From contig OY987242.1 in NCBI GenBank assembly GCA_963920765.1, positions 11,744,789-11,808,788 of the forward strand: a stretch of 64,000 nt of DNA. The letters run 5' to 3'. The DNA comes from Ulota crispa. Taxonomy: Eukaryota > Streptophyta > Bryopsida > Orthotrichales > Orthotrichaceae. This document shows, piece by piece, positions 20,571 through 58,551 of the stretch. The notes beneath the pieces are model-generated. The model was not told the origin of the DNA and made no database searches. It saw only the letters and a program-made list of their open reading frames with translations. Every line of letters starts with the position of its first letter. The first letter of the stretch is position 1. The position numbers and the translations under genes were made by a program.

Positions 20571-20761
20571 TGCAGAAAAAAATGGTGATTATTCTCAAAT
20601 ATGGACCGCCAAAAGCGGCCATAACAGTCTTGAGCAAATCACGGAGTTCCCTCCATAACTTCGAGCAAAAATATTCTAAAAATTCATAACCTCAGCCCAA
20701 AAAAAGCTACACTTTTATACACTACATTGGTCACCAACGACGACTCATCTCCATGGGTTAA

Positions 20762-21327
20762 CCCTTAACCCCGAGCGCCCAGAGTTATTTTAGGGTTTAG
20801 GAGAAAATGGGGTTTAACCCCTAAACATCCAGAATGACGTTTCTTGTCGTTTGTCTTTGAAAAAACATTGTGTATGGTAAATGAAAGCAGATTTTCATCT
20901 GTTTTTTTTCCTAAAAGTGATCATAAACACATGTTTCATCATGGAAGGCAAAAGATAACTTCATCATGGAAGGTAAAAGATAACTTCATACCTTCTCTAC
21001 TGATGGAGACCAGCCATGAGTGTTTTCACCGTACAAATTAAGAGAAAAAGTGAGATAAAGTTGTGGGCCCAATGACAAGATCATGTCGCTAGGGCGCTTA
21101 AGGGTTAAACGTCACAAAGGCCCATTGCAACTAGTACAATATAGGGTATTTTTCTTGTATTTGGAATGGATCCATACCTCTACTACATTTGAGATCAACA
21201 AAGAAGTTGGAATATAGATAAACGTGGTTCTAGTGAGCTATTTGAGATCCCAAACTAAAATTTCTTGTTGGTAGCAAATGCCAAATATACAACAACTTAT
21301 CTACTATGCCCATGTGACGTTTAAGGG
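20762..21327. mobile_element. Composite TTAA-type element, family D copy 3
   Basis: Four TTAA-linked ends are seen. TTAA followed by CCCTTAACCCCGAGCGCCC begins at 20758. TTAA followed by CCCCTAAACATCC begins at 20814. GGGCGCTTAAGGG then TTAA ends at 21104. GACGTTTAAGGG then TTAA ends at 21327. The first and third pair (GAGCGCCC with GGGCGCTT), and the second and fourth may pair, giving two overlapping or nested units. The interior carries the family D phrase near 20930 (CATAAACACATGTTTCATCA), with a local duplication of CTTCATCATGGAAGG. Confidence 0.5.
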
Positions 21328-21658
21328 TTAATACTATTATAGTAAGTTGCTCATTTTGTAATTGGTGTCTAAGGCTCAGTTTAGACTACAGTACACTATT
21401 AATGGTATTTAGTGTTGGCAACACTAATTACGAACCCCAACACTAAATGTCAACAATCCCTTAATGTTACCAACACTATTTGTCAACTATTGTAATTTTT
21501 GGGAGTAATTGTTTTTTGCAAGTTTACATTTAGTGTTAGAAATTTGTTCATTTCTGCTACAACAAAAAAATACAAATTCAATTCATGAGTTAATATCTAA
21601 ACAACTATTTGGCCCAAACTACAAACTTGGAACGGATTGAGTTTGTCCATTAGATTAA
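21328..21658. other. Gap between TTAA elements
   Basis: AT-rich. It contains AAGGCTCAGTTTAGACTACAG near 21371, which resembles one end of the MITE at 50341-50668, but I found no partner end here. Confidence 0.35.
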
Positions 21659-22577
21659 CCCCTAAAGGACCAAACCCCCTTTTTTAGAAACATAGCAATT
21701 TTGGGTAGGTACCTGTGATTGGAGCTTTTCATATTTTGGGCTGAAATTTTAACAAAATGTGGGGACAAGGTTTATCTTTTATATGCACTAAATTTCATGA
21801 CATTTGGAATTATGAGTAAAAAATTATGGCCTAATATGTTGTTTTTTGTATTCATCAGGTAGCTTGGGCAGATTTTTAAAAATCATTTTTTTCCAAAACA
21901 AAAGTTTCATATTGGTTTAGGAGATTTATGTGAATGTAGGGAGCTACAAATCATTATGTTTGGATCAATGAGATGAAAGTTGTGAGGATTTTTTGTTTGC
22001 AAGCAGTTCTAGATTCTCTACTCTAAAATAAACTTTGAAGTCCTATATTTTACTCAATTTTCAATAATTTGGAAAAAAAATCAAACAAAGGAAAGTAGAT
22101 GGTTTATCACAACATTATCACTGTTGGGGTTTGCATTATTCATTTCCATAATTAAATTCTTAACAATTTAGTGTTTTTACTCACTCTACTTCTTTTTACT
22201 TACTATTTTTTCCCATGTCTTGTAAAGTTCCAATTGATTTGAAAATTATCCCACACACACCTAATTTGATCTCCTACATAGGAAAAATAAAGCGCAACTT
22301 TGGGTAGAGCAATTTTTTTGTTAAATAGTGGTCAAACGCTTTTGAAATTTTTGGGCAACATGGAAAAATACTTTTTTTCTCAATTTAGATGTACATATCT
22401 CACTCCTTTCCTTTTGGAATGAGCTGATTTTTTTCCCACAACTACCTCTTCTAGTTTGGGGCAAGATCCTATGATTGGATTTCCCAAAAACAAAACACAA
22501 AATCCTTTTTTCTAAACCTCCTAAAAGTGGCAATTTTTAGTGATTTTCAGAGAAAAAAGGCCATGGTCCTTTAGGGG
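21659..22577. mobile_element. TTAA-flanked TIR element, copy T2
   Basis: TTAA (21655-21658) is followed by CCCCTAAAGGACCA. The right end is ATGGTCCTTTAGGGG and then TTAA (22578-22581). The length is 919 bp. It has no open frame above 70 codons. It is homologous along its length to T1, T4 (inverted) and T5. Confidence 0.85.
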
Positions 22578-22946
22578 TTAAAATTTCAAATTTGTCCACA
22601 AGTGTTCACACTTAGGGTTTGATTTACCATGTCACCAACCAATGTAGCCACATCAGCATACAAGATAGTGAAGTTTTGGAGTTTGCTATGAAGGTGGCTC
22701 TAAACTTGTCCAGCAAATGAATACTCTTGTTTTGTAGTAACTATTTTCTCCAACACTCTTGGAGGACTTGGAAGTGCTTTGTAGAATGAAAGATTAGTGG
22801 GTTGCCACTTTTTGTGTTTTGCAATTGGGCCTAATGTTCCTTTACTATAAATCATTGTTTACCATACTCTCAAATTACATAATGCACCAATTTCTCCCAA
22901 TTTTTGTAGGGCCTAAACATAGTGTGAATAGAATTTTTGGTGTTAA

Positions 22947-23855
22947 CCCCTAAAGGATCACTTGTCCGTTCAACGAACAAATGGGATTTCGGGCAGGTAC
23001 CTACGGCCTCAATTTTTTTCCTGATTTTTTGAAACTCTTTTTGAAGTTAGAAAAACACATTAGCATTTGGGGAATATAATTTTTATTCCAATTGATGCCA
23101 TGGAGCAAAAGTTATGCCCAAATAAGCACAAATTTGGGGACTCTGGGTAGCAAAAAAAGTTATTGTAAAAACTTGATTTGTTTTTCTGAGAGATTATATC
23201 TTTGTCTACATCTTAAGCTTTGATTCATTCCATTTGGACTAGTTATGAGAAAGTTATGGACAATTTGGCAATTCAAGCATCTTCTTGAAAAAATAACTTA
23301 TAAACTTCATTTTTGAATGCAAGTTTAACATTTTTTCAAAGAAATTTTTTTGAGAGTGTGAAGTTTGCTTTCTAGAACAATCTCACTATTGGGATTATTG
23401 CGTTTCAATTCCATTGCAAGGTTATTAGCAATTTAAGTTTTTATTCAATCTCATACCTTCTTCTACCTAATGTTTTTTTTAAAGAATGATTTTGTTTTTT
23501 TTTGTTTTTTTGTTTTTTTGTTTTTCCCAAGATTACCAACTCAACTTCCCACCATGCAAAAATAGAATTCCAAACTTTGTGGTGTAAAAAAATTATGTTA
23601 AAACAATTCAAAGTCAAATAATCTTGTTAGGCAAGGTACAAAAAAAGCTATTTTGTACACTTTAAACGCAAATTTCTTGCAATCTGTGTGATCAAAGTTC
23701 TTGAGTTTTGTATGACACACTCCTATACTAGTCTAGTACAAGATCCTACGGTCAAACATGCAAAAAGATTAATTTTCAAACTTTTTTACTCTTTTCCATA
23801 GAAGTGATAATTTTGAGTTTCTTTTGACAAAATAAAGGCCATGGTTCTTGAGGGG
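22947..23855. mobile_element. TTAA-flanked TIR element, copy T3
   Basis: TTAA (22943-22946) is followed by CCCCTAAAGGATCA. The right end is TGGTTCTTGAGGGG and then CTAA (23856-23859), one base off TTAA. The length is 909 bp. The interior is a more diverged relative of T2 and T5, so it is likely an older copy. Confidence 0.75.
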
Positions 23856-24265
23856 CTAATAATAGCATATTGAAGTAACATCTTCAGACGCACTAATTTC
23901 TGTACAGTACAAACAATCGTGGCTTTTGTAAACTGTGTCACACGCAACTTATGAGGAAATCAATGTGATGCATTCTATTTTGATTTACCATGTTAGAACA
24001 ATACGCATGGGGTAATTTTACATTGACATGAGCTTTTTGGAATGGTATGTACATTGTGTGAATCTGCACTTTTCAAGGTTTTGGATTCTAATATAACATT
24101 AAGCAATTTTAGATTGTTTCATACCTTTTTCTTGAAACCTCACACTTATCTACATAGCCTGTCAAAATAAAAAGGTGGCTTCTTGAACGCAACCAAGGTA
24201 TCTTGTAAAGGTTTCAAAAAGAAAGCCTACAAAGAAAAAGATAGACCGCTACATTCTTTTGTTAA
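23856..24265. other. Gap between TTAA elements
   Basis: AT-rich single-copy-looking sequence. No gene or repeat was recognised. Confidence 0.4.
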
Positions 24266-25184
24266 CCCCCAAAGGCCCAAGCCCTTTTCTGTAAAAATTC
24301 ACTGAAAACTGTCACTTTGGGGGAATGAGTAGAAAAGTAGGAAATAAAATTTGATTTGCAAATTCAATCATAGGATCTTGTTTTAGATTACAAGAGGTAC
24401 TTGTGGGAAAAAAATCAGGTCATTTTATAGGGAGAGGAAGGAGATATTTACATCTGAAATATAATAAAGGGTTTTTGTCCTGTACTATCCAAAAGATTCA
24501 TAAGTCTTTGACCACTCTTACATGAAAAAAAGTTGTTTTACACAAAGTTGAGGTTTATTTTTTCCATGTAGAAGACCAAGTTAGGTATATGTGGGAGAAT
24601 TTTCAAATCAATTGGAACTATACAACACATAGGAAAAAAATAGTAAGTAAAAAGAAGTAGAGAATGAGTCAAATCACTAAAGTGTTAAGAATTTAACAAT
24701 TGAAATGAAAAATACAAACCCCAATGGTTTTAATGTTATAATAAATAATCTACTTCCGTAGGTTTAGTTTTTTCTCCAAAATATTGAAAATAAAGGACTT
24801 TGAAGTTTAATTTAGAGTAGAGGATCTGTAATTGCTCACAAACTAAAACGTCTCATAACTTTCATCTCATTGATTGAAATTGGATGATTCAAAGCCTCCT
24901 ACATATGAAAAAATCTAGAGAACCAATTTCAGATTTTCATTTTTTTTTAAAACAATTTTTTAAAAAGTTTTTGGGTTGCATGGATTGCCCTCCCTCTCCC
25001 GGGTTGCAGAAATTCTTACATAACTTCTTTGTCAAATGTCATAATGAAGAAAAAATGAAATACATGCGTAGGTCTTGGAATCCCCCACCTTCAATAAATG
25101 TTTTAAAAATCACACATCATAGTTTAGCTATAGGTACATGCCCAAAATCCATTTGTCCATGGGGGACAGTTGGGCATTTAGGGG
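24266..25184. mobile_element. TTAA-flanked TIR element, copy T4 (inverted)
   Basis: TTAA (24262-24265) is followed by CCCCCAAAGGCCCAAG. The right end is TTGGGCATTTAGGGG and then TTAA (25185-25188). The length is 919 bp. The interior is the reverse complement of T2/T5, for example GGAAAAAAATCAGGTC near 24409 against GAGCTGATTTTTTTCCC. It shares its right-hand TTAA with T5. Confidence 0.8.
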
Positions 25185-25188
25185 TTAA

Positions 25189-26121
25189 CCCCTAAAGGAC
25201 CATTGTTCCTTTGAGAGACACGTTGGACTTCAAGCATGTACCTATGGCTAAACTACTTTGTGGGATTTTCTAAAACTTTTGTTGAAGGTGGGGAATTCAA
25301 AGATCTATGTGGGTATCTAAAGTTTTCTTCATTCCAACATTCGATGAAGAAGTTATGCATGAATTTATGAAAATTTGAGGAGGACTGCCCATCTGGGCAG
25401 CCCAAAAAATTCTTTAAAAATTACATTTTTTTAAAATAAAAGTTTGAAATTGGTTCTTTAGGTTTTTTTATATGTGATAAGCTTTGAATCATTCAATTTC
25501 AATCAATGACATGAAAGTTATGAGGAGTTTTTGTTTGCAGGCAGTTATGGATTCTCCACTCTAAAATAAACTTTGAAGTCCTTTATTTTACTCGATTTTC
25601 AATATTAGAAAAAAAAAAAAAAAAAACTAAAGGAAGTGGATTGTGTATCACAACATTGTAACTGTTGGGATTTGCATTTTTCATTTCAATTATTAAATTC
25701 TAAATGATTTAGTGTTTTGACTCATTCTCTACTTCTTTTTACTTATTGATTTTTCCCATGTGTTTTGTAGTTCCAATTGATTTGAAAATTCCCCCACACA
25801 TACCTAACTTGATCTCCATCATGAAAAAAATAAAGCGCAATTTTGAGTAGAGCAATTTTTTTGTTGTAAGAGTATTCAAAGGCTTCTGAAATTTTTGGGC
25901 AGTATGGAAAAAAACTTTTTTTTTTACTTTAGATGTAAATATCTCACTCCTCTCCATCTAGAATGAGCTGATTTTTTTCCCACAAATACTTCTTCTAGTC
26001 TGGGGCAAAATATTTTGGTGAATTTTCCACAAACAAAACACAAAATTGCTTTTTACTAAACCTCCTAGAAATGACAGTTTTTAGTGGTTTTCATAGAGAA
26101 ATGGGCTTGGTCCTTTAGGGG
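25189..26121. mobile_element. TTAA-flanked TIR element, copy T5
   Basis: It begins CCCCTAAAGGACCATTG directly after the TTAA that also closes T4, and ends TTGGTCCTTTAGGGG followed by TTAA (26122-26125). The length is 933 bp. It is closely similar to T2. Confidence 0.85.
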
Positions 26122-26506
26122 TTAACCAGTCATCTTCTCAATCTAAAATGTGGATATTGGAATCCACTGGTGTAGTCTGTACTGAGTGTAAACTTAGTAG
26201 AACAAGCCATGGGTTCTTTTCTTCAGTCCCGGCCCCCAATAAATCACGAACACTAAAATTTAGTAACTACACAGTAGGACAATAAAATGATTTGTAGATT
26301 ATAGTGCACACGTAAGCGTACTACACAGATATGGAGGCCTGTATTATTGGCTGATATCTGGTTGTTGGATGAGGCAACCCAAGTATGGAGCAATCAAAAC
26401 TGTGTCTCAAATCCCCACTAATTTCTTAAAACTCATTGGTTAAGAATTTGACAAATTGAGATGTATAGTTTTGTACTGTGCCCAAGTCCAAGTTCAACTA
26501 CCTAGT

Positions 26507-26812
26507 ACATTGAATATTGCATTTAGGTTGCATTAACAATTAGGTTGTCTTATCTTGGAAAGTTACCTCATGACTCATTCTTTTACCACTTAGAGGTGCA
26601 TGTAACTATCTATATATTTAATTTTCACATGGCTTACAACTTGGATTCTGCTAGTTTATTTTTATGAAGCTTTATTGTTGTTACCAAGCTCTTTAAATAT
26701 TTTTTATTGCAATAACTATTCATGAAAATGATTGTAGTATTAATAAGTTGTATTTTGTGTAAAATGTCAAAAAATTAGTGTGGGGCAATCTGAATACAAT
26801 ATTTAGCGTAGT
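26507..26812. mobile_element. MITE family G, copy 2
   Basis: The left end ACATTGAATATTGCATTTAG is matched by the inverted right end CTGAATACAATATTTAGCG. It is about 305 bp long. Inside are AATTAGGTTGTCTTATCTTG and AAGTTACCTCATGACTCATT, shared with copies at 43.7 and 51.4 kb. Confidence 0.6.
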
Positions 26813-27527
26813 TAACAATACTTAGTAACCTTACCCATACCCGAGCAACACTCAATTTGGCATCCTAGATTTGGGGGTTTCATAGTACACTAATGAACCC
26901 AAAGTGAAATAGTAATTGTTGCTTGCAGAAGCAAATTCTACCACATGTTAGTTGTTAAGTTGCTTTGGGAGGGTTGGGATTGGGACCATCAAGTGCCATT
27001 ATAAGAACATATCCAAGCAATTTCAAGATTAATCTAGAATTGCATTTAGGGACCTTATGAGTTGTATTTTTGCTCTTTAATACAAAATATTCTACAATAC
27101 TTTTTTTCACAGAAATAACATTCCATGAGAGCTTATTGAGAGGCTAACCATACAGATTCTTATCTAGAATTTTCCAAGACCTTGAAGTACCCTAAACCCT
27201 TACACGCTCGGGTACGGGTAATGTTACCTTAGGAGATTTCCCAGCTTTCTCTTGTCCCTATTTTCAAACATCGCACCCATGCCCGCACTCTTCTGCACCT
27301 CATTAGGTGCACACCGTTTTCTCCTGACTGACCTTGGAAATTTGGAATTTATATTTGGATTCATTAACCTGTTTTAGTCCGGAACAGAGAAAGGAGGGAA
27401 AACATGGCCGGCCCAAAAATACGAATAGATTTTTCACTTTTATCCTTGTTTGCTTGTAACTAAATATGAGCTTTTCCACCGGAAACCTATAAACACGTGT
27501 GTGTAGTATATTTAAACCGGATAGTGG
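26813..27527. other. AT-rich intergenic, nothing recognised
   Basis: No supported gene or repeat pair was found. The last 300 bases are GC-richer leading into the palindrome. Confidence 0.4.
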
Positions 27528-35769: not shown

Positions 35770-35875
35770 AGCTAGAAACAGAACCGTGCCAACCTGTGAT
35801 CTGTGAACGGTCGATGTCAGCGTGAGCAGGACTTAATTGCGGATGAGCATGCACAGCAAGCAATGCAAGAGGAGA

Positions 35876-36408: not shown

Positions 36409-37274
36409 TACCTGAAGGACTAAGAAGTACACTTTTGGCTTTGTGGATATTTGGGCATTGCCAAACATTTCCCCTGTAAATACTTGAGATACAATTGTGC
36501 AAAAAAAAAGATTGTATGTGCTCGTATTGAAATTCTTACTCCCCTCCCACACGGAGTTTGGAATTCAATGAATTTTTAGTGAGATATGGTATCATGTGTA
36601 ATTTGGGCGTCAATTTGGGCATCCTAAAAAATAGAAATAAAGGGATTGTGGAATTGTGTTGCCCACAACTTGTTCAAATGTACTTTATTATGGTTTGGTC
36701 AATGAGTAAAATTTGCAATCAACAATCCTTGGCTATATGTTTTTTTTATTTTTTGTTCAACAATGTTTTCTTTTGGCAAGTATTTCACATGATGTTTTAG
36801 GTTTACACTGCAAAAACATTGTAAGACTTATTACTATAAAAATCACTTCCATGAAATTTCTTTAGTGTATTGACTATTTCAAAAAAGTAGTTCCAATTTC
36901 TAACTTATTTGACTTTGTTTTAAGTATTGGATGGTCATGATATTTGTGAAGCATAGAGCCAACTTCATGCTTTAAAAGAAAATCAAATTGGGCAAGAAAC
37001 TCACAAATTGGAAGGTATCAATTTGAATGACCAAAAAAGATAATGACACCTTGGACAAGCTCCAAAAAGAAGTTTTAACTATATTTTGAGTATTATGATC
37101 TAATGATGTTTGCCCTTACAAAGTTTAATTAGAAGGTTGTACATAAGTAAAATACAAACTAGATCTTATATTTAGATTAGTGAGAAAGTTTCATAAATTT
37201 GATCCACTAATATTTTTATTGAGAGATGTCAATTCAAACCATTTGAACATGTGAACCTGCAAGAATTTTAGGGG
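36409..37274. mobile_element. Probable TTAA-type element, degraded copy
   Basis: TTAA (36405-36408) is followed by TACCTGAAGGACTAAG. The right end is GAATTTTAGGGG and then CTAA. The length of 866 bp fits the 0.9-kb class, but the ends agree only in part, so it is an old copy or a chance pairing. Confidence 0.4.
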
Positions 37275-37364
37275 CTAATAATGAAAAGTTTTTTCACAAT
37301 CATATAATAAGAACAGGTTTTCTACACCTATTGTACCAACGAGATGGTGTGACATCCCCATGCC

Positions 37365-38100
37365 ATCCCTCCCTCCCCTCCCCCATACCATCCCTCTCCC
37401 ATACCATCCCTCCCCCATACCATCCCTCCCCCATACCATCCCTCCCTCCTCCCCTCCCCCATGCCATCCCTCCCTCCTCCCCCCCACACCATCCCTCCCT
37501 CCTCCCCCCTACGCCATCCCTCCCTCCTCCTCCCCCATGCCATCCCTCCATCCCTCCCCCCATGCCATCCCTCCCTCCCTCCTCTCCCCCATGCCATCCC
37601 TCCCTCCCTCCTCTCCCCCATGCCATCCCTCCCTCCTCTCCCCCATGCCATCCCTCCCTCCCTCCTCTCCCCCATGCCATCCCTCCCTCCCTCCTCTCCC
37701 CCATGCCATCCCTCCCTCCCTCCTCTCCCCCATGCCATCCCTCCCTCCCTCCTCTCCCCCATGCCATCCCTCCCTCCCTCCTCTCCCCCATGCCATCCCT
37801 CCCTCCTCTCCCCCATGCCATCCCTCCCTCCCTCCTCTCCCCCATGCCATCCCTCCCTCCCTCCTCTCCCCCATGCCATCCCTCCTTCCCTCCTCTCCCC
37901 CATGCCATCCCTCCCTCCCTCCTCGCCCCCATGCCATCCCTCCCTCCCTCCCTCCCCCCCATGCCATCCATCCATCCCTCCCCCCCATGCCATCCCCCCC
38001 TCCCCCCATGCCATCCCCTCCTCCCCCCATGCCATCCCCCCCTCTCCCCATGCCATCCCTCCCTCTCCCATGCCATCTCCTCCCCCCCCCCTTCCCCCAT
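37365..38100 (+). repeat. 30-bp pyrimidine-rich minisatellite
   Basis: About 735 bp of tandem units, most of them CCCCATGCCATCCCTCCCTC plus CCTCCTCTCC (30 bp). The centre (37560-37930) is most regular, with some units shortened to 26 bp, and shorter derived units lie at both edges. The plus strand is almost purely C and T apart from one ATGCCA per unit. No stop codon occurs in most frames, so long false ORFs appear on both strands. These are not genes. Confidence 0.95.
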
Positions 38101-41100
38101 GTCATCCTAGTATGTGAAATCCCTATCCCAACCCCACTAAAATTCCAACCTAATCAAGCTTGACACCCCAATCTCAATCCCAACTTGAAATCCTGATCCC
38201 CATCCCAACCAATGAAACAAATTCAATTATAGGAACAATTAATCATCCAAACACTTTTCATCCAAATGATTGACCAAGATAGACATAAATGAAAATCATG
38301 TTCAATAATATTTATACTAGTGGATTTGTGCACCCGCCATTTCAACGAAAGGCTATTTGCTTACAATCTACCTTATTTTTGAACATTGGCTTTCCATCGT
38401 GCACTTGGTTCCCAAACAATTGAGTTTTTATGACAATTTCAAAGGTTTCAAATGAGAACTATGAATCACATAACCAAAAACAATATTATATGAAGACTAA
38501 TTTACTCCCTGCTGCCACACAATTTACATTTCATTGCTACTCTTCAAAACCCTAATTTACTCTACATTGCCCTACACGCCCGTTGTACCAATGGGTTCAT
38601 GCCCTCCATGGCCCCCATAGCATGACTTCCATGCTATCCCCATGCCATCTTGATGCCATCCTCTCATGCCACCCCATGCTCATAAAAAATATTGCATGGG
38701 ATAATATAAACTCAATTTCAATTTTAGATTCAAATCAATTTGCCACTTCATCTCCCTCCCCACCCCTTTATACGTGAATTTCAAATTCAAGTTTGAAAAG
38801 ATTCAATAGGGTCCACCAAAGATGTCATCTCACAGATAACGCCTATGTTCATCACTTTGCCCCTTGGCCCTCAATCAATCACAATTTTTTCACTTTGCCT
38901 CTTGGCCCTTGACCAATGGCAAATTTTTAAATTATACTTTGCTTGCAACTACCCAACTAATAGAAATAAGACTATTATAAAAATAAGATTTAGAGTTTAT
39001 GAAGCAAGATAACATCTTGCCTATGTGGCTTTAAAGTATGAGCTTCACATAAGACCCTCCATCCTATATCTTAAATCTATTCATGCCCATCCATACTTCT
39101 TTTTGCATCCATACTTCTTTTTGCATCCATACTTCTCTATATATACCTGTCTATCCATATTTGTCCACTTATACATGCATGCCATCTATTGTCTATTCAT
39201 ACTTCCCTAATTTGATATCAACCTTGAAAGTTTGCCACTTTATAAGTCACTAATGTGTCTTGCACACAATTTGTGTAATTTCACTTGCTTTTTTTAGTAT
39301 CTTTTAGCTATTTGTCTTGTTCTACTTGTTTCTACCTTCCTTTGTTTCCCTCCCTTTCCTCCTTTTCCTCTTCCTCTCCACCAAAATTCAAGTGACTTTT
39401 CACTTTCCCTTTCACTGATTTTTCCTCCCCTTCTCCCCATTCTAAGAGAGAATTTCAAATTTCTTGTGCTAATAGAGAATTTGAATTTTCTCATGATGAA
39501 AAAACATTTGATGCTTTATGATAGAGATTTGATCAACCAAAATCCCACGTTGTGAGAGATATGCCAATCAAAATTTGCCCCATTTAGAATTGTAAACATA
39601 TAAAAGTTTTTCAAAATCACCTATCTTACCTCTCACCTCTTTTGGATTTGGTCTCTCAGAATTCCCTCTAATTTTTCATCCTTCCTATTCAAAATCCAGT
39701 TAGTTATTTGACCATTTCCAACAATTCACTTCTTGTTTGAAGTTGATTCTCTTTGATCCATTTTTCCATCTGTATGTTTTATATGAAAAAGAAAGCTATT
39801 GATGCTTGGATCCACCTTTGAAGTAAATTTTCCCTTTGAGTTAGACATCTCCAATTGAATATGGAAATTGAAAAATAACTACAGTTTAGTACATGGGTTT
39901 AGATAGTGATTTGCTTTTGTATTGAATTCGTGCAACAAGATTCTACAGAAGTTTTCAACCAATTGCAAGTGTTTTAGTTAGTAAGATAAAAAAACGCCAA
40001 CATTTATAATGACAAAATATCAATCGTTATTCTCTACATATGGAACGCAAGCATTGTTAGCCGTTTTTTCAAAGACCACTTCCTAACATGGGTCTGTGTA
40101 TCTGAGCTGTGTATCTGAGTGCATAGTGAAGGCATGCGCAAAAAATCAATTAGAATCATGTAACTTACATATCAAACAAATTAATACAAAAGGAAAAAGG
40201 GGTACACATGCCATTTGGTCAAAATTGAAAGGGATACATGTGTCACTATATTAGTGGTTCAAAAATGGGATTAGTGTTTGGGACCCATCAATGTCATATT
40301 TGTATTTGTGTGAAATTAATTTGACTTACAAACGATAAGGGACATTTGAAATCTTATTTCTTTTATTCTTAACTAAGTTGGATGGTTGGCCTCTGGTTGC
40401 TTTTTTTGTTTTGTTTTTTAATCTCTTGAGTTGGGTGGTTAGACTTTTTCAAGGGATAGTTAGTTATATAGTGGATCCAACTAATACTATATTTATCTCG
40501 GGGAGGTGACTCTCCAATTTTTAATAAACTACGTGAGATAAAAAATAGAGTCAATATTATTCATTGGAGGTAAATTTTATATTTTTGTTAGAAATATCAT
40601 AGTACCAAAAATATGTCTATTACTTCATTATATGTAATATAGGGTGGTGAATAATGCCTTCATTTTAGAATTCCATAGAAAAAAATAGGGTAGGAAACAT
40701 AGGATCCTCTAGAAAGTGTTTAGTAGGATGAGTTTGATTATTATTGTTTGACGAGTTTGAATGAAAAATTAATAATGTTATGTCCAAGTTTTGAAAAGAA
40801 TGGAGGGAAATTTGTTCAAAATTACTTCGACATTTAGGCTGGAGTGTGCAAGCTTGTGTGTGATGTGGGATTGTGATAGTTTCTTTGCTTAAGCTTACGT
40901 GTGGTGGGGAACTATAATTGGTTGTTTGCATAAAATTGTGTGTGGTGTAGGACTAATTGGTTGTTTGGTTTAGCTTCATGTTCTTTGCTGCGTTTTCTCA
41001 TTCAAATTGTTATTTTTGTAATTCAGATGCTTGTAAGGGCCAAAATCTTTTATAAACCCATTGTATACACATAATTTTTTCTTATGATACTTTTGTGTTT

Positions 41101-42488: not shown

Positions 42489-42610
42489 TGTGAACTTATT
42501 CAAAGTGTTGCACAAATCATATGAATCATGAATGCATTGGAATCTTCTAGAATCTACTAAAAAAGCTACTGATCAGTGAGCAAAAATTTGTAAAGGCTAC
42601 ATGAGCTTAA

Positions 42611-43554
42611 CCCCTCATCGCCTAAGGCCCAAAGAGGGTTTAGGGCTTCTTTGTTGTTCAAGTGTTGTAAGTCTCAATGCTAGTGGAGTATGAAAATCTC
42701 AACCATACAATTTTGTAGTGTGCATGCTGTAAATGATGTGGATCTAATTTGGGATCATTTGACTGCATAGATTGGAAGATTATAATGTTCTAGTGCTGAA
42801 AAAAGATGCTGAAATTTCCTAAAAACACATTTGGAGGTGAAATTTGATTCCTAGACCTACTCAAATGAAAAAAAGTTAGAATGCCAAGTGATTCAAACCA
42901 CTATATACTCATTTTGTGTGCAAAATTGTTTGAAATGTCAAAAAAAAATGAAAAAAGTAGCAAAAAACCACATCTATGGCTAAACCTCTCTCAACTAAAA
43001 TGCTTCTCATTCACTCATAAGTTCATAACTTCTTGGATTGATATGAAATGTTAACCACATGAACTAGACTAGTAAATGCAACTTTTCTAATAACAAATAT
43101 TGAAAAAAAAGTTCCTATGAAGAAGTTGTAAGCCACCAAAGTTCACTATACTACAAAAATGTGTGGATTTTGAACTTTGAGTTGCTCCCAAACACTCAAG
43201 AAAACTTGGATTGATATGAAAATTTTGTCACAATTACTAGACTTTAAGGGAAACAAAACACAACAAATTTTGTTGAAAAAAAACATTTGATGAAAAAGAT
43301 ACAAGCCCTCAAAATTTCAGCCATCACAATTTAGTGTGGTGGACTCAAATTGACCCTATGAACTTTGAATGACTTTCACAAACTCCATATATATTAAATT
43401 GATCTGAAAATTTATCCATAGAAATTAGACTCGTATGCACAACTTTGCCAACAAATTTTACTAAATTTGGATAATCAGCGCAAAAGTTACAACAATTCTA
43501 GTAGCAACAATGGATTTCTAGAGGACGAAAATCATCCCGTTAGGCGATGAGGGG
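42611..43554. mobile_element. TTAA-flanked TIR element with a different TIR, copy T8
   Basis: TTAA (42607-42610) is followed by CCCCTCATCGCCTAAGG. The right end is CGTTAGGCGATGAGGGG and then TTAA (43555-43558). The length is 944 bp. The TIR shares only CCCCT with the CCCCTAAAGGACCA family, but size and target are the same. The interior has no coding capacity. Confidence 0.85.
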
Positions 43555-43939
43555 TTAACCTTCCCACCTGCCGTGCGTTCGGCTAATATGATGAGATGTG
43601 TGCCCACGTGGCAAAGCTGGTAGAACTACCCTCAACAACCCTTTTTTCACGTTTCAGAGAGTTCTAGAACGTCCGAAGTAAAAATATCACGATGAAGCCA
43701 AGTAATTAAACAAACAAGTATATTCTGGATAAAATAATCAGTCAGCTACCCTAAAGATTGCATTTGGGTTACCTTAATAATTAGGTTACCTTATCTTAAA
43801 AAGTTACCTCATGATTCATTGTTTGAGTATATGAAGATGCAAATATATAAGGATTTCACATGGGTTACAACTTAGACGCCACTATTTTGTTTCTTAGCAA
43901 GTTTGTTGTTATTGTCATGCTCTTAAAATTTTGTTTAAA

Positions 43940-45283
43940 GTAGGAACACCCCTCACTATTGTTGTCCCCATCCCTAACACCTACTAGTTTTTGTGATGTC
44001 AATCACTGACAATTACAAAAAAATAGTTATGGGTGACAAAGTGATGGTTATGGGTACTTGGCATGACAATTTTGAGTGCCCCATCTCACTATTTATCCCC
44101 TAAAGGACCAGGTGGATGTTCAACACCCACTTGAGAACTTGGGTAAGGTCATATGGAGTTAATTTTTATTGGATGTTCTCAAAATTGTTGCACAAGGTGC
44201 AAATATGTATCCTCCACGTGGAATTATAAAATTTTCCCCAATCGGATGCCCCCAATTCAAAAGGTATGTTGCTCAAAAGAAATTGGACAGCTTGGGCATC
44301 TTTGGAGAATATTATGCTAAAACTCTCATCAACTTTTGATATTTTGGCAAGTGTGTAATCAAAAAAACATGGTGTTCAATTGTCAAAAAAAAAAAAAAGC
44401 TCTCACATCAGAGTTTGAAGGGAGGCAAACTTTATTAACTATATTGGGGCAATTTCAAGAAAAAAAATCCTCTAACTTTAGGGCCAATTATCTTTCAATT
44501 TATAATTCCAAAACTTTTGAATTTTTTTTTCACATATTCCAAGTGTTTATCTCTAAATTTTCGCTGTTCAGATTTCAAATAAATGCCTTCCTCATTGCAC
44601 AAGAAATTATGAAAGAATGACTAATGTATTGCCAATTCACTTCATCTCCTTACATTCCGCAGTGATTTAGAATAAGCTAGATTCTAGAATTATTGCATCT
44701 GAACATTTTCATGAGTGAACCTAACATCAAATACTTGTGAATGGTCAAAAAGCTCATTCTCATGTAGAGCAAAGATTTTATTCTAGGAAGGCTCAAAGTT
44801 TGCTGACCTTGTTTTGGAGGCATGAAAAAAAGTTTTTCTCACTTCAAACATTATAATCTTACAATCTGCTCTGTCAAATGGGCAAAATATTTTTGCACAT
44901 ATTCATTTATCTATTTTACACTTTTGTACAGTTGAAATTGAGAAAAAGAAGTTTTTATTTTCAATTTTTTGCATTGCACAAAAAGTTGGCAGTTTTTGAG
45001 AATTTTTCTCAAAAAACACCCTTGGTCCTTTAGGGGTTAAGAACACCTCAAGTTAGTATTATGACCATATGAGCGCACTAAAGACATCTCCTACACACAA
45101 CTATACAATTTTAGTGATTTAGGACTTTGAAATTTTTTTGTGAAAAAATGCTTAAAATTAGAACTTTCAAATTAATGCCAATATTTTTTATTCTCTCTGG
45201 CTAACCTAGAAATATTCATGCTTATCTAACCGGGCTTTATGTCCTAAACTCTTTAAACTCACGCATATGGGTGCTGCTACCTT
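43940..45283. mobile_element. Element related to family E ends and to the palindrome, split by T6
   Basis: The outer ends GTAGGAACACCC and GGGTGCTGCTACCTTATT are inverted partners and resemble family E ends. The internal arms (44000-44096 and 45037-45200) match the right arm of the palindrome at 28.2-28.45 kb, including GGGTGACAAAGTGATGG and ACTATACAATTTTAGTGATT. Confidence 0.65.
44097..45036. mobile_element. TTAA-flanked TIR element, copy T6
   Basis: TTAT (44093-44096, one base off TTAA) is followed by CCCCTAAAGGACCAGG. The right end is TTGGTCCTTTAGGGG and then TTAA (45037-45040). The length is 940 bp. The flanks TCTCACTATT and GAACACCTCAAGTTAGT match the uninterrupted palindrome arm at about 28267-28298, which reads CTCACTATTTAAGAACTCC, so the original site was a single TTAA. 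Confidence 0.85.
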
Positions 45284-45749: not shown

Positions 45750-45913
45750 ATTAGTTAATACAATCCTCGCGGTTTGGCCCATTTGTAAGGACATTTTATT
45801 TCACTCATGCAATTTGGCACTATAATGCTTTTGGAAAAAACCGGATTGACCCCAATAAACCTTGAGAATTATCTGGGAGAATAAAAGGGTTTGCAATAGT
45901 ATTTGAGGGCAGG

Positions 45914-50668: not shown

Positions 50669-51354
50669 TACATCAACCAAAGATTGAATCATATGATATT
50701 TTTACTGTAAACTTGATGGAAAGCCTAAAGTACTCTGCTTTTTGAGCTCTTCTCGTAATTAGTGTTTACTAGAAGAATTAACTTAGTTGTATTCATTTTT
50801 AATACATTCCGAAGTCAATACTCCAGGTTGATACCTTCAAGTGGACTTGGTATTGTTAACAAAATCCACGTCAACCTTTCTTGTCATATGTGTAGTATAC
50901 AAATTGTGATATTCATCTCCGCCAATTTCAATGTTTATGGGTTGATGGCAGTGGACCAGTGGCTATAAAGAACACTCAGATTCAATTCACAGAATTTACA
51001 AACATTTCACTACCCTTTGAAAGCAGTCAAAGTGCTCTTCGTACACAAAGTTCTAACTCTAAGCATTTTGGCATCAAAGAGGGAACTTGAAAGGAATTTT
51101 TGAAGAGGCAAAAAAATATGAAGGACAAAATCGTTTAGTACGGCCACATCACTTCCTGGAGATTCCCACTATTAAAACAATGACATGTCAATTGTCAATA
51201 CACCAGTATTACTCCCGCTTTGTGGCAGGAGTGTGGGACACCTTGGTTTCCAACGATGATGTTTCAAGCGGAAACTAGTGTGAAAGAGGCTGGACATCTA
51301 CATGGGATCAGAAAGTGTGAACGCCTTTCGCATGACATCGTTGATGTCTCTAAT
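50669..51354. other. Intergenic, nothing recognised
   Basis: Short frames only, with no family resemblance. Confidence 0.4.
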
Positions 51355-51893
51355 TCTCTACCCTAAATAAGGTTACCTTACCCAAATAATTTACCTCATG
51401 ACTCATTGCTTGGCCACTTGTAAGCGTATGCAACTATTTTAATACTAGGATTCACATGGTTTACAACTTGGATGGTGTCAATTTGATTTTTTACAACTTT
51501 GTTGTTGTTGTCAAGCCCTTAAAATTGATTTATGACAATAAATAGTTATAAAAACTACTGTAAATATCAAATTTATTAAATTGGGGAAAAGATACATTTT
51601 GGGACTTCTAAATTTTACATTTTTTAGATTATTTTGGTGATGTAGAGTGAATTGTATGATTATTTCTTCAAGATTTTACATCAATGATACATGATTTTGA
51701 AGAAATTATACTAAAACTCACTTTAAGTTGCCAAAATTCTCTCACGAATGCAATATAATTTAATAATCCCAAAATGTATATTCTTCCCCATTTAACCGTT
51801 TGTAGTAGCAATATGTATTTATTTAGTGTAAAATGTTTAGTGCAAAATGTCAAGAAATAAGTGTGGGGCAATCTAAACGCCGTAGTCAGTTGT
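51355..51893. mobile_element. MITE family G, copy 4, split by a family B-like MITE
   Basis: The left part shares AAGGTTACCTTACCCAAATA and TTTACCTCATGACTCATTG with copies 2 and 3. The right part shares AATAAGTGTGGGGCAATCTA. The interval 51562-51797 is a separate TIR element. Confidence 0.55.
51562..51797. mobile_element. Family B-like MITE, nested
   Basis: The left AAATATCAAATTTATTAAAT and TGGGGAAAAGATACATTTTG are matched by the inverted AAAATGTATATTCTTCCCCA near the right end. It resembles the copy at 60431-60683. Confidence 0.55.
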
Positions 51894-53005
51894 GTAGCCG
51901 CAAGCTGCTTCGATTCCATGGATAGACATGCGCAAAGAATCTAGTTAGGGAGATACCGACGATCTTCGAGCTAGCCTGGCTGCATCGCAACGATGATGAC
52001 GCTGCATGTCTTGGTAGTCGGACAAGGCCCAACTCCGAGACCACCTTGCACTATAAATTCTTCTCTTCATGTTCCACGAAGACCTTTCTTGCCCGTTTCT
52101 TTGCGCTGTAGTGGAGGAGAGCGCACTTCTGGACTGAGAGGTTGTCATGTGCATTGTTGTGGCTGACTCTGTAATTCTGCTTTTGGATTCAGCTAGGTCT
52201 TCAGTACGTCTACCTAGTTTGTGACCTTGCCTTTTGAAGTCAGAGCTAGTAAGGGCATTGAAGTGCGTCTATGAAGGAGACAGTACCAGCGACGCACCAA
52301 GTAGTTTGCTGCTAGAGAGATGCGTCGCTGCCATGTTGCATGGCGCTTTTTTAAAATTAAGCCTTACTGAATCTTGCGAGAAGAGGCTGCGTGCGCGGAG
52401 GGTGATCGTGGACTTAATCAGCGCGCCGATGGAGGGTCTTTCCGGGAGTCCGAAATTGCGAATGCCTACTCATCTGTATGAAATCATTAAAATCCATGAC
52501 TTTAATACCGTAATGTGCCGGTTTGATAATTATGTTGCGTTTTAGAAGAGTTTTCGGGGCCTTGCCATCTCGGTCATGAAGTCGTGTACAAATTTGTAAT
52601 AACTTGTGACTGTGTCTTAAGAATATGCAGAATTGCAAATCCCGTGTTGCTTTAACGCAGACGGCTTGTGGGTGGTATATAGGAGACACCGTAATCCGTT
52701 TCTGCTTGCACGTTAGACCTAAACGAGGGATCTTGAGAAATGCCTTTAAACATTCGTGCCAGTTACTAACAGTCACATTGATTCGGTTAAAACCTACAAT
52801 GCTGCGAGAATAGAAAATTGTAATTGTGTTTCAGTACTTAAGTCTATATCAAATGCCGGTTAAAAGTTTGCTCTCTCGTGCGAAAAGTCGGTGCATTAAA
52901 GTCAGCTGGCCCATTGTTTTGCTTGCGAAACGTTCCCGGATCGTTTTCATGCTATAATGTAACCGATGAACATTGGCATTCATTTGATTCGAGTAGGCCC
53001 CCCTT
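51894..53005. other. GC-richer, gene-like stretch without recognisable product
   Basis: From about 51900 to 52560 the sequence is GC-rich with CG dinucleotides. The plus-strand frame 52234-52545 (103 codons) and others resemble no known protein. It may be leader or promoter sequence of the small gene downstream, a non-coding transcript, or an old gene. The 16-bp phrase CATTTGATTCGAGTAG at 52981-52996 recurs at 53336-53351. Confidence 0.35.
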
Positions 53006-53256
53006 GCATATCACAGGGAGCGTATATAAATCCCCGTGAGCATCGAATTACAGTGGTTCCTCTGTGAGGTTCAACTTTTTCTTGTGTAAATTTTTTCTTA
53101 GTCTCAACTTTTTCAGTGTCAAATCTTTTGTATTTCAACACTAAAAAAGTTGAGACTAAAAAAAGATTTATACTAGAAAAAGTTGAACCTCACAGAGGAA
53201 CCACTATAATTCCCCATGAGCATCACGGGGATTAATATACCCTCTCTGTGTATGAT
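53006..53256. repeat. 250-bp hairpin-forming insertion in a promoter
   Basis: The outer arms GCATATCACAGGGAG and CGTATATAAATCCCCGTGA are paired with the inverted TCACGGGGATTAATATAC and CTCTGTGTATGATA. The inner arms from 53052 (AGTGGTTCCTCTGTGAGGTT) pair almost perfectly with those ending at 53205. The unit lies about 60 bp upstream of the TATA box of the small gene and carries its own TATATAAA. A MITE is the simplest explanation. Confidence 0.75.
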
Positions 53257-53316
53257 ACCATTGTCATATGAGATAAAACACGTGACTATCTCCGGACGCT
53301 CCAGTAGTTTTTCCCC

Positions 53317-53324
53317 TATAAAAA
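53317..53324 (+). promoter_or_regulatory. TATA box of the small two-exon gene
   Basis: TATAAAAA within CCCCTATAAAAAGGGG, itself a short palindrome, 175 bp upstream of the ATG at 53492. The predicted start of transcription is near 53345-53355, at the second copy of CATTTGATTCGAGTAG. Confidence 0.75.
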
Positions 53325-53491
53325 GGGGTTTCTCACATTTGATTCGAGTAGAATAAAGCAGATTCTAAAGGTTTCGTTGTCCTCTAAGCTCACTCTAGTG
53401 AGATTATTGGAGAATTCATCGACAAGCGGTACACAATATCTTCGTCCGAGTCCCTCTTTTTCTAACTTACCCTGAAAGATTTCCGGAGTAC

Positions 53492-54068
53492 ATGACTAGT
53501 CTTTCGCAGCTCGAGAATAGGTAATTGTGAGGATTTCTTAATGCATTTGCGCTTGGCTGACATATAATCCTCACTGCGTGCTCACTGTCCGTGCAGCTAT
53601 TCCAGGGAAATCGAACGGCCGAATGTGGGACGGAGGCACGGGTACCTCGTGCTGATGCCAACCATATGCGAACACAAGGAGTTTCACCAGGAGGAGTATT
53701 ACCAGAGGACCATCTGCCATTCAAAGCTTCTCAATACTCGTCGGTGCACACCCAGCATCCACACCAAGCTCATCCAACGCTTTGAAGAAGACGAGGGCCC
53801 AGAGGAGGAGCGGCCACTCCTAAGCGATTCTAACAAGCAGGCGAAGGAGAAATCGAAGCATAAACGGAGCAAGATATGGAAGATGCGGGTGAGAATCGCA
53901 TGGCTACCACGTACTCGTCATCGAGCGAGCCTCAGAGCAGGCGTTAAGCTCTTCTCGCCCTTCTTTCTGATGAGGAAAATGCGAGATGTGTACGTCCGAG
54001 CTCTAAAGAATGTGGGGGCGAAGGTCAACCACGGAGCTTGGCATTCCGTGGGCGCTCGGGCCATGTAA
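53492..54068 (+). CDS. Small basic protein of unknown function
   Basis: Two exons: 53492-53520 (MTSLSQLEN-) and 53597-54068, joined in phase by GAATAG|GTAATT and GTCCGTGCAG|CTATTC, giving 166 residues. I do not recognise the family with confidence. The N-terminal third contains GRRHGYLVLMPTICEHKEF. The middle is acidic (FEEDEGPEEERPLL), followed by a lysine/arginine-rich stretch (KQAKEKSKHKRSKIWKMRVR) that could be a nuclear signal. The C-terminal part has LFSPFFLMRKMRDVYVRALK, faintly like a motif (KMRDAYV-type) of short plant-specific proteins. No signal peptide or membrane segment is visible. A TATA box sits 175 bp upstream. GC content is higher than the surroundings. A start at the in-exon ATG 53655 (138 codons including stop) is possible if the upstream exon is untranslated. 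Confidence 0.7.
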
Positions 54069-54701
54069 CTAAATGCGAGCTCCTCCCGAACAAAGACCGA
54101 GGATCAGATGAAGGACTGTTGTGCCTCCCAACAGAGACTTACTGCAGGAGCTGGTTTTACTGCATCCCAATCCGTATGGTTTTAATATAGTTTCCTGCAA
54201 TCTTTTTGTGCATGGCTTGGATTTCCGTCGTCTCACCTGAGAGTTTTGCGTCTGGCGATGGTGAGCGGAGATCGGTGAGATGACGACAGCGTTAGTTATG
54301 GATGAGAATTGTGGATGCATGCTAATTGCCATGTACGCACAAGGATGTTGCCATGTTGGTGGTGCGGCATTAGGGTTGTCAGACTTTGCGATTCCTGCAT
54401 TGCAATTTGCAGGGTTGTTTCTAGATACAGTGGGCACTATGCCATTGATTTTGGTCCAGACCCCATTGCAGAGTTTTGGAACGCAGGTCTCAAATTGGCT
54501 TCTTGTAAGTTTCAAAATTGCAATTTTTCCAATCTTATTGAATATGGTGTTCTTAACTTCTTATTAGATTATACTTCCGTTTCCATGAATATGGATATGG
54601 GAGTTTCTTGCAGACTAATATACCTGACTCCTTCTTTTTAACTTGTAAATTCATTCTACAGAAACGGATGTGGAAATGCAACATGTGCCTAATTCTCCTA
54701 T
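54069..54701. other. Downstream flank of the small gene
   Basis: GC-richer to about 54480 and probably its 3' untranslated region. Overlapping frames on both strands (up to 148 codons) contradict each other and resemble nothing. Confidence 0.4.
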
Positions 54702-54962
54702 AACACCATGTTCGTTAAATTGGGAAAAACGGAGGACTGGTACTTTGTACTCCACTTTAAATCCAAAAATTTACCTTAAACCAGACTAAAAAGTATCATA
54801 TTCAATCTAAGTCACTAAGATTTTTTCCCTTTGCAAATTTCTCCTCTCAAATGAGGCCACATGTACCAAAAAAACGCTGTGAGCTCAGTTTTAGGTAAAT
54901 CACCTAAAACTTTCAGAAGTCCCAAAATGTACTCTTTTGCTCAATTTAGCAAATATAATGTT
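54702..54962. mobile_element. MITE family B, copy 3
   Basis: The ends AACACCATGTTCGTTAAATT and CAATTTAGCAAATATAATGTT (tail) are inverted partners. The interior GCAAATTTCTCCTCTCAAAT matches copy 2 and, inverted, copy 1. The target duplication is no longer clear. Confidence 0.7.
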
Positions 54963-55324
54963 CGATTCTATGCCTTGTGATTCATATTGACAAAATCAGA
55001 ACTCGAGGTAGAGTATGTGGTCAATCCCACTCCCCCTCAATCCCCTCCCCCTCCTAATGTTTATATCCACTTTTATAAAATATATACACTTTTGCATAAA
55101 AAGTTGTAGAGATTGGATAATGCTGCTTCACTACCTCATGTAAGAAAATGCAAACAAATAAACAAGGCATCTACTTCCGGTACACGTAGTGTTGTCACTA
55201 GAGTTTCTCTTTCACTACTCGTGCTTCCCACAGAAGGCATGCCTGTTTGGCACAACCAGATGAGTGTATAAGCAGTACCAACAAGATCAGTCTGACTATT
55301 TAAACTCGCTAATCGTCATATTAA

Positions 55325-56227
55325 CCCTTTAGAGACCACCAAACCATATTTTGGTTCGGGAGACTAGTTTTTGGCCAGTAAAATCGCTCAACAATCTGGA
55401 AAATGATTTTGAAGAATGCTTGTGATCACAAGAATTTTGCATTCAACCCAAAAAATGACAATAGAATCGGATATGGGAGTTAATAAATAATGGTGTTTAT
55501 ACATCATGGCCTCAAAATACGTATCTATATTTGATCAAAGATGGATCAAAGCAACAACACAATACATCAAACATCTAAGAAGAATGCCACATTTTAATTG
55601 TGCAATCTTAAAAAACTTCAAATTATTCAAGAACTATGCTTTTATTGTTTCTCTATACAGTAGTTGTACAATTGTACTATTTGAGAATCCATTGAAATGA
55701 TGCTATCATTTTATTTAAACAAAAGTTCATCCTACATTTAAGGCCAATTTTTGATTGCTTTCACCGATTGGATTTTCAATAACAAATTTCAAATTTCTTG
55801 TAGAACCATTTTAGGGTAGCAAAGAAAATGAGATTTTTGACCCTTTTTGTCCACTTAGTTACACCTTGTGATTGCTATTTTTGTTTATTTTGAGTGAAAT
55901 TAGTCTTGTTGAAAAGGTGGGAAACCCTGCTTTCTAGAAATGTAAGGCTCTTTTCAATCAAAACTTGCATGAAGCGCTACCATTCAAAACTACACAAGCA
56001 TGAAAAACTAAAGGTTTTCCATATACGGCTCATTCAATCATTATAATATTTCACCTTCAATGATAAATCTAGTTGAAATTTTGATGCATTGCAGCAAACA
56101 AGGTGTCCTTCACATTTATACAATTGGATTATTCAAATTGGGTCCATATTTGTTTCAAATGCACATCTAATCTTACTGCCCCGGTTTCTAGTGGATTTTG
56201 GGAAAATGCGTGTTGGTCTTTAAAGGG
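55325..56227. mobile_element. TTAA-flanked TIR element with a variant TIR, copy T9
   Basis: TTAA (55321-55324) is followed by CCCTTTAGAGACCACC. The right end is TTGGTCTTTAAAGGG and then TTAA (56228-56231). The length is 903 bp. It has no coding capacity. Its interior does not match the main family, so it is a separate subfamily with the same target rule. Confidence 0.75.
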
Positions 56228-56231
56228 TTAA

Positions 56232-57828
56232 TCAGTTCCTAACATAAACTCAAGGGAAGTTTTCTGTTTCTTTATCTTCCAATGTCCAACATGACATTGC
56301 CTCTGCAAGGCTGAGTTGAAAACATATCACAATTTCCAACACCTCATCATAATGTCTTCTCAACTTTTAGTTTCACTTACACAAAAAAAGATGTAGGGAA
56401 TGGACAAATGCTAAGCCTCCTCTCAACTTCTAATCTCATTTTCATAAAAATTCATGTGGACGTAAAGCATGCGTCCAACACTCAAACCTACATGGCAACC
56501 TCCTTCCCTCTTGAATCTCTGTTTTTTTATTCATAAAAATGAATATCACTACATGGAATCAAGCATGTGCCCACCTCCACCTTGGTCTCTAATTTCAGTT
56601 TTACAAAAATTATATGTAAAATCATATATATACACGCCATGGTTGTCACATTGGGCCACCCATCCATCTGCCTGATGAGGTCATGGTTTGTTTGATGAAG
56701 AGAACTCATAATTGACTTTTAAAAATGGTACAAAATGATATAAAAAACTTACTTTGTACATGCTAGCAACACTCATTGTTGCCAACATGAAGTCAAAATG
56801 TGGATTCAAAAGCCATATCACTTAATAAAAATGAAAATGAAAAATTGATTCTTCCAATTTTATGGGGAAAAACTCTAAAACTAACCAGCGGGTGGACATG
56901 TCTTTTTAGGGAATTTGGGCGGTCCGCATGTGTTATCCAACAGCCTAAAGTTGCCCAAAGTAACAACCCTAATTATATGCTTAGCTTTTTTCAAATTAGA
57001 TAAAAGGTGCCATATTGTCATCAACAATTATTCAGTGTTTTTTAACATTGAAAGTTTAAAACCGTAGAATACTAAAATATATCTTAATTCATATTATAAG
57101 TATTTATTTAAGGTGGCCAATATTAACTGTTATCTTTATTAACAGTATTTTTCTTTTTCATTCACCATGCAAATCTTTACAATCCATTCAACATCTTGCT
57201 CAATTAAAACAAAACTCAAATAAGCACAAGATGTATTTAAAATATATAGAGTAGCAACAAGTACAAGGATTAGAATTCAAATCCTATCTTTGTTTTTGTT
57301 TTTGTTTTGTTTTTTTTTGCCATATCCACAATATTTATCCACCTCCAAGGCTCCAACGGCTTCCCTCAGTAGATGCCTTTCTGAAATAAATCCTCAATAT
57401 CTTTCATATTTCTCAACAAAAAAATTTGCATCATATATTCATATCAGCGTATGCATTGAAAAGATATTTTTTTTTTGCGTCTAACGACTTAAACTTGCCT
57501 TCTTTCTCTCAACACTGAATCCATCCACAACGTGGAATTGAAGATCAAGATTGCCATTCGAAAGGGAGCAACTGTCTTGTTGCAATTTTAAAATCTAACG
57601 GAAGTTTTTGTAATTTCATGACTGCATGACTTTGATTTCATTATACGAGTGTCAAAAAAAAATTGCTTGAAAACAGCAGAGAATCAATTAAACACGATTT
57701 GGAATATTTTTTATTTATGAATTGTGTATAAGAAATATGTAACATTCACTGCAAAGTGCAAACATGCTATTCATTTCAAAAATATGAAATTGTGTTTTCA
57801 TATATATTTATCAATGCCACAAATGATT
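56232..57828. other. AT-rich intergenic, nothing recognised
   Basis: Short frames only. A T-rich run lies near 57280-57320. Confidence 0.45.
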
Positions 57829-57832
57829 TTAA

Positions 57833-58547
57833 CCCCTAAAGGACCAACTGTCCCCTCGGGCGACGAATTGATTTCGGGCATGTACCTAGGGTTAATTTAC
57901 TTTTTGTGATTTTTTGAAACTTTTATTGAAGGTGTGGAACTCAAATATCTACGTGGGTATCTATTTTTTTCTTCATTCTGACATTTATTAAAGAAGTTTA
58001 AAATGAATTTCCAAAAATAAGCAAGATCGGGTAGTCCAAAACTTCTTTAAAATTGCATTTAAAAAAAATTAAAAAATGAAATAGGTTCTTTAGACTTATA
58101 TATACATAGGAAGCTTTGAATTATTCAATTTTGATTGATGAGATGAAAGTTATAAGAAGTTTTTGTTTGCGGGTAGGTAAGGTTTCTCTCAAAACCACAC
58201 CTACCCACAAACAAAAACTTCTCATAACTTTCATCTCATCAATCAAAATTGAATGATTCAAAGATCTCTATGTATATATAAGTCTAAAGAACCTATTTCA
58301 TATTTTTATTTTTTTCAAAAACAATTTTTAAAGAAGTTTTTGGGTTGCCCGATCTCGCCCGTTTTTTAAAAAGTCATTTTTAACTCCTTCAATAAATGTC
58401 AAAATGAAGAAACTACAGATACCCACATAAATCTTTGAATTCCCCATCATCCATAAAATTTTCAAAAAATCAGACAAAGTAGTTTAACCATAGACACATG
58501 CCCAAAACCCCATTTATCCCCAAAACGGGGGCTTGATCCTTTAGGGG
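57833..58547. mobile_element. TTAA-flanked element, foldback form, copy T7
   Basis: TTAA (57829-57832) is followed by CCCCTAAAGGACCAACTG. The right end is TTGATCCTTTAGGGG and then TTAA (58548-58551). The length is 715 bp. The two halves are reverse complements meeting near 58185, where AACTTTCATCTCAT and its complement lie either side of the short loop. It is thus an inverted pair of left ends of the main family. Confidence 0.85.
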
Positions 58548-58551
58548 TTAA

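Follow-up and report, generated by a model that had tools for sequence, protein, structure and literature searches.

Short TTAA-flanked elements and piggyBac-type transposases in the genome of the moss Ulota crispa

The window elements and their copies in the genome

We analyzed a 64,000-nucleotide stretch of DNA from the moss Ulota crispa, hereafter called the window, together with the 274.8-Mb assembly that holds it and in which all genome searches were made. By direct inspection of the sequence, nine elements in the window start with CCC(C)T and finish with AGGG(G), all nine at the places where a preliminary description of this DNA had put them and had related them to the piggyBac superfamily of transposons. 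They are listed below with coordinates that include the flanking tetranucleotides and lengths that exclude them; E and X numbers denote loci that encode the piggyBac transposase domain PF13843 and are treated in the next section.

2156..3074, unstranded: piggyBac-type non-autonomous element, 911 bp, flanks TTTA/TTAA
21655..22581, + strand: piggyBac-type non-autonomous element, 919 bp, TTAA on either side, right end homologous to E17 and E18
22943..23859, unstranded: piggyBac-type non-autonomous element, 909 bp, flanks TTAA/CTAA, right end decayed
24262..25188, - strand: piggyBac-type non-autonomous element, 919 bp, in inverse orientation to its neighbour, with which it has the TTAA at 25185-25188 in common
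25185..26125, + strand: piggyBac-type non-autonomous element, 933 bp, homologous to E17 at both ends and to parts of E18
42607..43558, unstranded: piggyBac-type non-autonomous element, 944 bp, ends CCCCTCATCGCC, of the type seen in the PF13843 elements E1, E10, and E6
44093..45040, unstranded: piggyBac-type non-autonomous element, 940 bp, flanks TTAT/TTAA, lying in a repeat family that provides empty sites (TTAA)
55321..56231, unstranded: piggyBac-type non-autonomous element, 903 bp, ends CCCTTTAGAGACC
57829..58551, unstranded: piggyBac-type fold-back (palindromic) element, 715 bp, TTAA on both sides

The size class of 900 to 945 bp proposed earlier was correct, but it holds eight of the nine elements rather than seven. 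Exact TTAA was found at 15 of the 18 flanks. The three exceptions are TTTA to the left of 2160, CTAA to the right of 22947, and TTAT to the left of 44097; the rule of a T always before the central TA and an A always after it was therefore slightly too strong. A scan for paired ends, allowing at most 4 mismatches within the 16 bases inside TTAA, recovered eight of the nine elements and nothing else in the window, and returned zero in each of 20 control windows of the same composition generated by a first-order Markov model. The element missed was 22943-23859, whose right end is decayed. The elements at 24262-25188 and 25185-26125 abut on one TTAA. The nine elements cover 12.6% of the window, their lengths summing to about 8.1 kb. 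The element at 55321-56231 has a 91% identical copy adjoining E6, and its end type is near that of X36 (CCCTTTAGCGACC).

A possible tenth element, with motifs at 20758-21331, was left out, because its motifs are paired by a looser scan (for example 20814-21331, where 2 of the first 16 bases mismatch) but not by the stricter one. The fold-back element at 57829-58551 is about 80% identical to a relative found at locus L031 (2043-2768), a 726-bp stretch that is 96% self-complementary and has the same TTAA-CCCC ends.

Throughout the genome, the 14-bp end CCCCTAAAGGACCA occurs 7,398 times and its reversed pattern 0 times; the search pattern carried a 20-base flank with any base except G at position -20. 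Ends of the TTAACCCCTAAAGGACCA type with at most one mismatch number 18,030 (0 in the reversed control) and those of the TTAACCCCTAAATGCCCA type 9,496 (1 in the control); intermediate forms may be counted in both. When up to three mismatches were allowed, TTAACCCCTAAAGGACCA gave 51,902 occurrences (232 in the control), a count that takes in part of the TTAACCCCTAAATGCCCA end type. As a rough estimate, the elements would make up about 3 to 8% of the genome if two ends represent one element of about 0.9 kb, some elements being much shorter.

The preliminary description had proposed that the tetranucleotides flanking the genome copies be tabulated, and we did so for a nonrandom sample, the first 100 listed exact 14-bp ends, all on contig 1. 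TTAA stood directly outside 83 of these ends, in agreement with the earlier prediction (82 of 96 once identical flanks were merged); the remaining 17 comprised 12 one-base variants of TTAA and 5 more divergent tetranucleotides. Positions beyond the tetranucleotide showed no comparable base preference in these 100 ends. Among 16 listed copies exact at both ends, 11 had TTAA on both sides and 12 measured 908 to 941 bp. Such flanks alone would have been insufficient for an assignment to piggyBac.

Transposase-bearing elements and their termini

PF13843 gave at least 120 matches above cutoff in the genome, with a best E value of 1.3e-73; this number is a lower bound, as 116 of 528 candidates were scored. 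Stops interrupt the reading frame of 110 of the 120 matched stretches; of the 30 best matches, 29 contain them. X36, an open frame of 476 amino acids, matched PF13843 at 8e-60, and among protein structures in the PDB it matched only T. ni piggyBac (6x67, E value 4.1e-20) and piggyBat (9c0f, E value 5.8e-17). In 32 aligned translations, the three aspartates of the catalytic DDD triad were present in 29, 24, and 26 at positions one, two, and three, respectively, and all three were kept in 20. D is replaced by N in 13 of the 16 substitutions, and one row is gapped; this bias would fit decay by C-to-T change. X36 has N at the third position. Downstream of the domain, a Cys/His-rich block of the form CxxC...CxxC...C...CF..H was recognized in 11 loci, several of them decayed, these blocks being judged by eye without a profile. 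The 32 transposase domains have a median pairwise identity of 35%.

Protein-like conserved blocks also lie about 1.6 to 4.3 kb upstream of PF13843 in E17, E18, E30, E1, E6, and X36, and these may be exons that encode the N-terminus of the transposase. Two pairs of PF13843 matches have identical scores, lie on opposite strands, and are about 15 to 20 kb apart (C7:18203169/18223004 and C2:36765124/36779670), which suggests inverted segmental duplications.

Seventeen transposase loci were assembled with their flanks. They are listed here, beginning with the seven that clearly carry CCC...GGG ends at both sides:

E1: two-ended PF13843 element, 5,027 bp
E10: two-ended PF13843 element, 5,026 bp, left flank TTCA
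E6: two-ended PF13843 element, 5,102 bp
E4: two-ended PF13843 element, 5,746 bp
E19: two-ended PF13843 element, 5,556 bp
E17: C5:24506226-24515054, 8,829 bp, PF13843 between ends of the form TTAA-CCCCTAAA(G/A)GA
E18: on C9, 8,530 bp, PF13843 between ends of the same form
E14: two-ended, with a one-base-variant flank
E3: probably two-ended
E30, E26, X36: right end only
E20, X35, X37: ends ambiguous
E11, X40: no ends found

The seven clear elements are flanked by TTAA at 13 of 14 ends, the left flank of E10 being the one that differs. E1 and E10 are 90% identical from the left to the right end, and their alignment stops one base past the right TTAA. The length of E17 is increased by two nested palindromes of about 415 bp. 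Where ends were found, the end type tracks the transposase tree. CCCCTAAATGCC ends belong to E4 and E14, CCCTCTAACG ends to E19, and CCCTTTAGCG ends to X36, near those of the window element 55321-56231. Ends of the form CCC(C/T)T(C/G)A(C/T)(C/T)GCC, near those of 42607-43558, occur in E1, E10, and E6, which occupy neighbouring branches but form no exclusive clade.

The preliminary description had also suggested looking for a longer element that has these ends and encodes a DDD transposase, and E17 is such an element, with E18 agreeing in most of the same parts. The window element 25185-26125 is 81.5% identical to E17 over 200 bp at the left end and 75.5% identical over 359 columns (about 355 bp) at the right end; its identity to E18 is 78.7% over 188 bp at the left end and 78.4% over 199 bp just inside the right end. 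Likewise, the last 353 bp of 21655-22581 are 77% identical to the right end of E17 and the last 345 bp are 70% identical to that of E18. The right ends of 21655-22581 and 24262-25188 also match E30 and E26, and the same right end recurs in E3 over about 57 to 61 bp. In E17, E18, E30, E26, and E3, right ends of this type lie 1,632 to 1,940 bp beyond the PF13843 match, and the transposases of these five loci form one clade with 100/100 support. The termini common to E17 and 25185-26125 therefore tie the window family to a piggyBac transposase, beyond the mere occurrence of TTAA.

It is thus almost certain that the window elements are non-autonomous members, resembling miniature inverted-repeat transposable elements (MITEs), of several piggyBac-superfamily families in this moss genome. 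By analogy with piggyBac biochemistry, a full-length relative would make a transposase that bound the ends of the short elements, excised these elements at TTAA, and inserted them into TTAA targets; in this way the short elements would have spread in trans by cut-and-paste transposition.

Empty sites and alternative explanations

Flanks were joined around a single TTAA at 16 insertion sites, one of them being the site of the two abutting elements, and used in two genome searches that scored the best 40 of 6,448 and the best 40 of 638 candidates. For 44093-45040, 33 of the matches scored span the junction. Ten of these empty copies were fetched, and eight read TTAA, the others reading TTTA and TTAT; the flanks of the filled site overlap by exactly four columns. 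For E19, 11 matches span the junction, and all eight that were fetched read TTAA; they represent seven places, as two of them are the arms of a single repeat. E4 had two junction-spanning matches, both with TTAA, for a total of 18 TTAA among the 20 empty copies fetched. As the joined flanks of E4 and E19 match empty sites, each of these elements was inserted as one unit of 5.6 to 5.7 kb. The other 13 of the 16 insertion sites yielded no usable empty copy (one-sided, self, weak, or no matches), and a search restricted to the window and the fetched loci returned only trivial self-matches.

Several results weigh against the assignment to piggyBac. No PF13843 match lies in the window among the matches listed, and the joined flanks of E17 and E18, which are the elements that sequence ties to the window family, gave no empty copy among the candidates scored. 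Eight of the 17 assembled loci are without a clear end pair, some perhaps owing to a short fetched flank. No TTAACCCCTAAAGG end, with up to 2 mismatches, was present within 1.5 kb of any of the 30 loci L001 to L030, because the elements extend further than that; the 30 best PF13843 matches likewise had no CCCCTAAAGG end in their neighbouring 1.5 kb, which was resolved by longer flanks. PF13843 was found in none of 14 control genomes, a weak control as these are possibly all microbes. Finally, transposases of another superfamily, PIF/Harbinger, are plentiful in this moss (see below).

TTAA targets are not unique to piggyBac and are also used by Kolobok, so the window elements might belong to some other TTAA-targeting superfamily and PF13843 elements might only have acquired such elements at their edges; the lack of an empty site for E17 and E18 among the matches scored would suit such an origin. 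We consider it highly improbable, since five loci whose transposases form one clade have the right end 1.6 to 1.9 kb beyond PF13843, since E4 and E19, which carry other end types, each moved as a single unit, and since end type follows the transposase tree where ends were found. The elements could also be Tc1/mariner-like, with only TA duplicated, element ends reading A...T, and TTAA as merely a preferred context. A TA duplication at a preferred TTAA would give the same letters as a TTAA duplication, so that flanks and empty sites cannot discriminate between the two, and it is the identity of the transposase that decides for piggyBac: the examined elements with the same ends encode piggyBac-type PF13843, and TTAA use is known for piggyBac from the part of a published account available to us (PMC10140906). 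A Tc1/mariner-like origin is accordingly extremely unlikely.

PIF/Harbinger elements and their Tourist MITEs are similar in size range and prefer A/T-rich targets, and a TWA target (W, A or T) could by chance resemble TTAA. Their transposase family is present in the moss genome, where PF13359 gave 150 matches (150 scored of 278 candidates), and Tourist MITEs with TAA/TTA target repeats are described as common in plants in the available passages of a review (PMC10004981). Nevertheless, the flanks in the window are symmetric TTAA on both sides, and the overlap at empty sites is four bases, TTAA, and not the 3 bp of a TWA duplication. Moreover, the ends and subterminal sequences belong to elements that encode PF13843, and it is very unlikely that the window elements are Tourist-like MITEs. 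Many of the PF13359 matches have no stops in the matched stretch. The assignment of the window elements to piggyBac, as put forward in the preliminary description, is thus supported by TTAA empty sites, PF13843 elements with shared termini, DDD residues, and the Cys-rich block.

PiggyBac in plants, age of the families, and minor elements

PiggyBac is best known from animals. The T. ni element (6x67) and the moss elements have in common a TTAA target, CCC...GGG ends, a DDD transposase, and a C-terminal Cys-rich domain. In contrast, the seven clearly two-ended moss elements measure 5.0 to 8.8 kb, partly through nested insertions. Ahead of the main domain they apparently carry further coding blocks, and the protein similarity of X36 to T. 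ni piggyBac is distant (E value as above). PiggyBat (9c0f) belongs to the same protein family by sequence and its third catalytic region aligns with a stretch of X36, but it too is distant in sequence and its host is an animal. As given in the available part of one source, the T. ni element is 2,472 bp long and its transposase has 594 amino acids (PMC10140906).

In the accessible portions of two papers, the occurrence of piggyBac in plants is stated without detail (PMC10140906, PMC10813416). PiggyBac is named as one of seven angiosperm MITE superfamilies (PMC10004981) and, in the part available of a further study, as one of the superfamilies present in all groups studied, land plants included (PMC4438587). 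Excerpts of repeat tables give 1,230 PiggyBac copies in a fern (PMC6890710) and 1 copy in feather grass (PMC8319324). The view that the superfamily is not well established in land plants was thus fair, yet not absolute. We found no description of piggyBac in a moss in a limited search of open-licence literature, made mostly by title and start of abstract; an apparent mention in a moss genome paper (PMC10619864) was rejected, as the word there is "piggybacking." The angiosperm PiggyBac MITEs are likewise short non-autonomous plant elements; the review, in its available passages, merely names the class (PMC10004981), whereas the moss adds a transposase partner with shared termini and empty sites. 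The novelty lies in the host, the scale, and the diversity, the mechanism being already known.

The best relatives of 25185-26125, among the best 40 of 8,856 first-look candidates, are 88 to 89% identical, and because none of those scored is closer, this family looks old. More generally, the families appear old, given the stops in 110 of 120 PF13843 stretches and the absence of scored relatives above 88 to 89% identity; their copies would be mostly old and most transposase genes broken. For a broader proposal, our confidence is evenly balanced: piggyBac may be an old, diversified resident of moss genomes, with well-separated transposases and at least four end types, which has spread at least ten thousand non-autonomous copies here and is a main DNA-transposon class of a land plant rather than an occasional arrival from animals or fungi. 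Such deep diversity with many short elements in a moss raises the question of whether it was inherited by land plants or acquired by transfer, and provides, in a plant, a natural system for how many short elements follow a single transposase. Repeat libraries of mosses may also misfile such elements as unknown or Tourist-like.

The window also contains, at 37247-38163, a minisatellite-like stretch in which several frames are open with a repeating proline/histidine-rich translation, and which is probably no gene. Elsewhere in the genome, very small palindromic elements of piggyBac type were seen, with facing TTAACCCCTAAATGCCCA ends 79 bp apart at four listed places (C1:241512-241590, 531562-531640, 3362792-3362870, and 8113088-8113166). 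A 239-bp element with ends TTAACCCCTAAAGGAT and TTAACCCCTAAAGAAT lies at C4:16278428-16278674 (L053 991-1237) between the two matches that a genome search with the LEAFY DNA-binding domain returned. The element is apparently intronic in the moss LEAFY gene, the two matches being read as exons. Pointing to a moss other than Physcomitrella itself, one of these matches (L054) is identical at 60 of 61 aligned residues to chain 4bhk, which we take to be the Physcomitrella LEAFY protein and which outscored the four other LEAFY chains matched.

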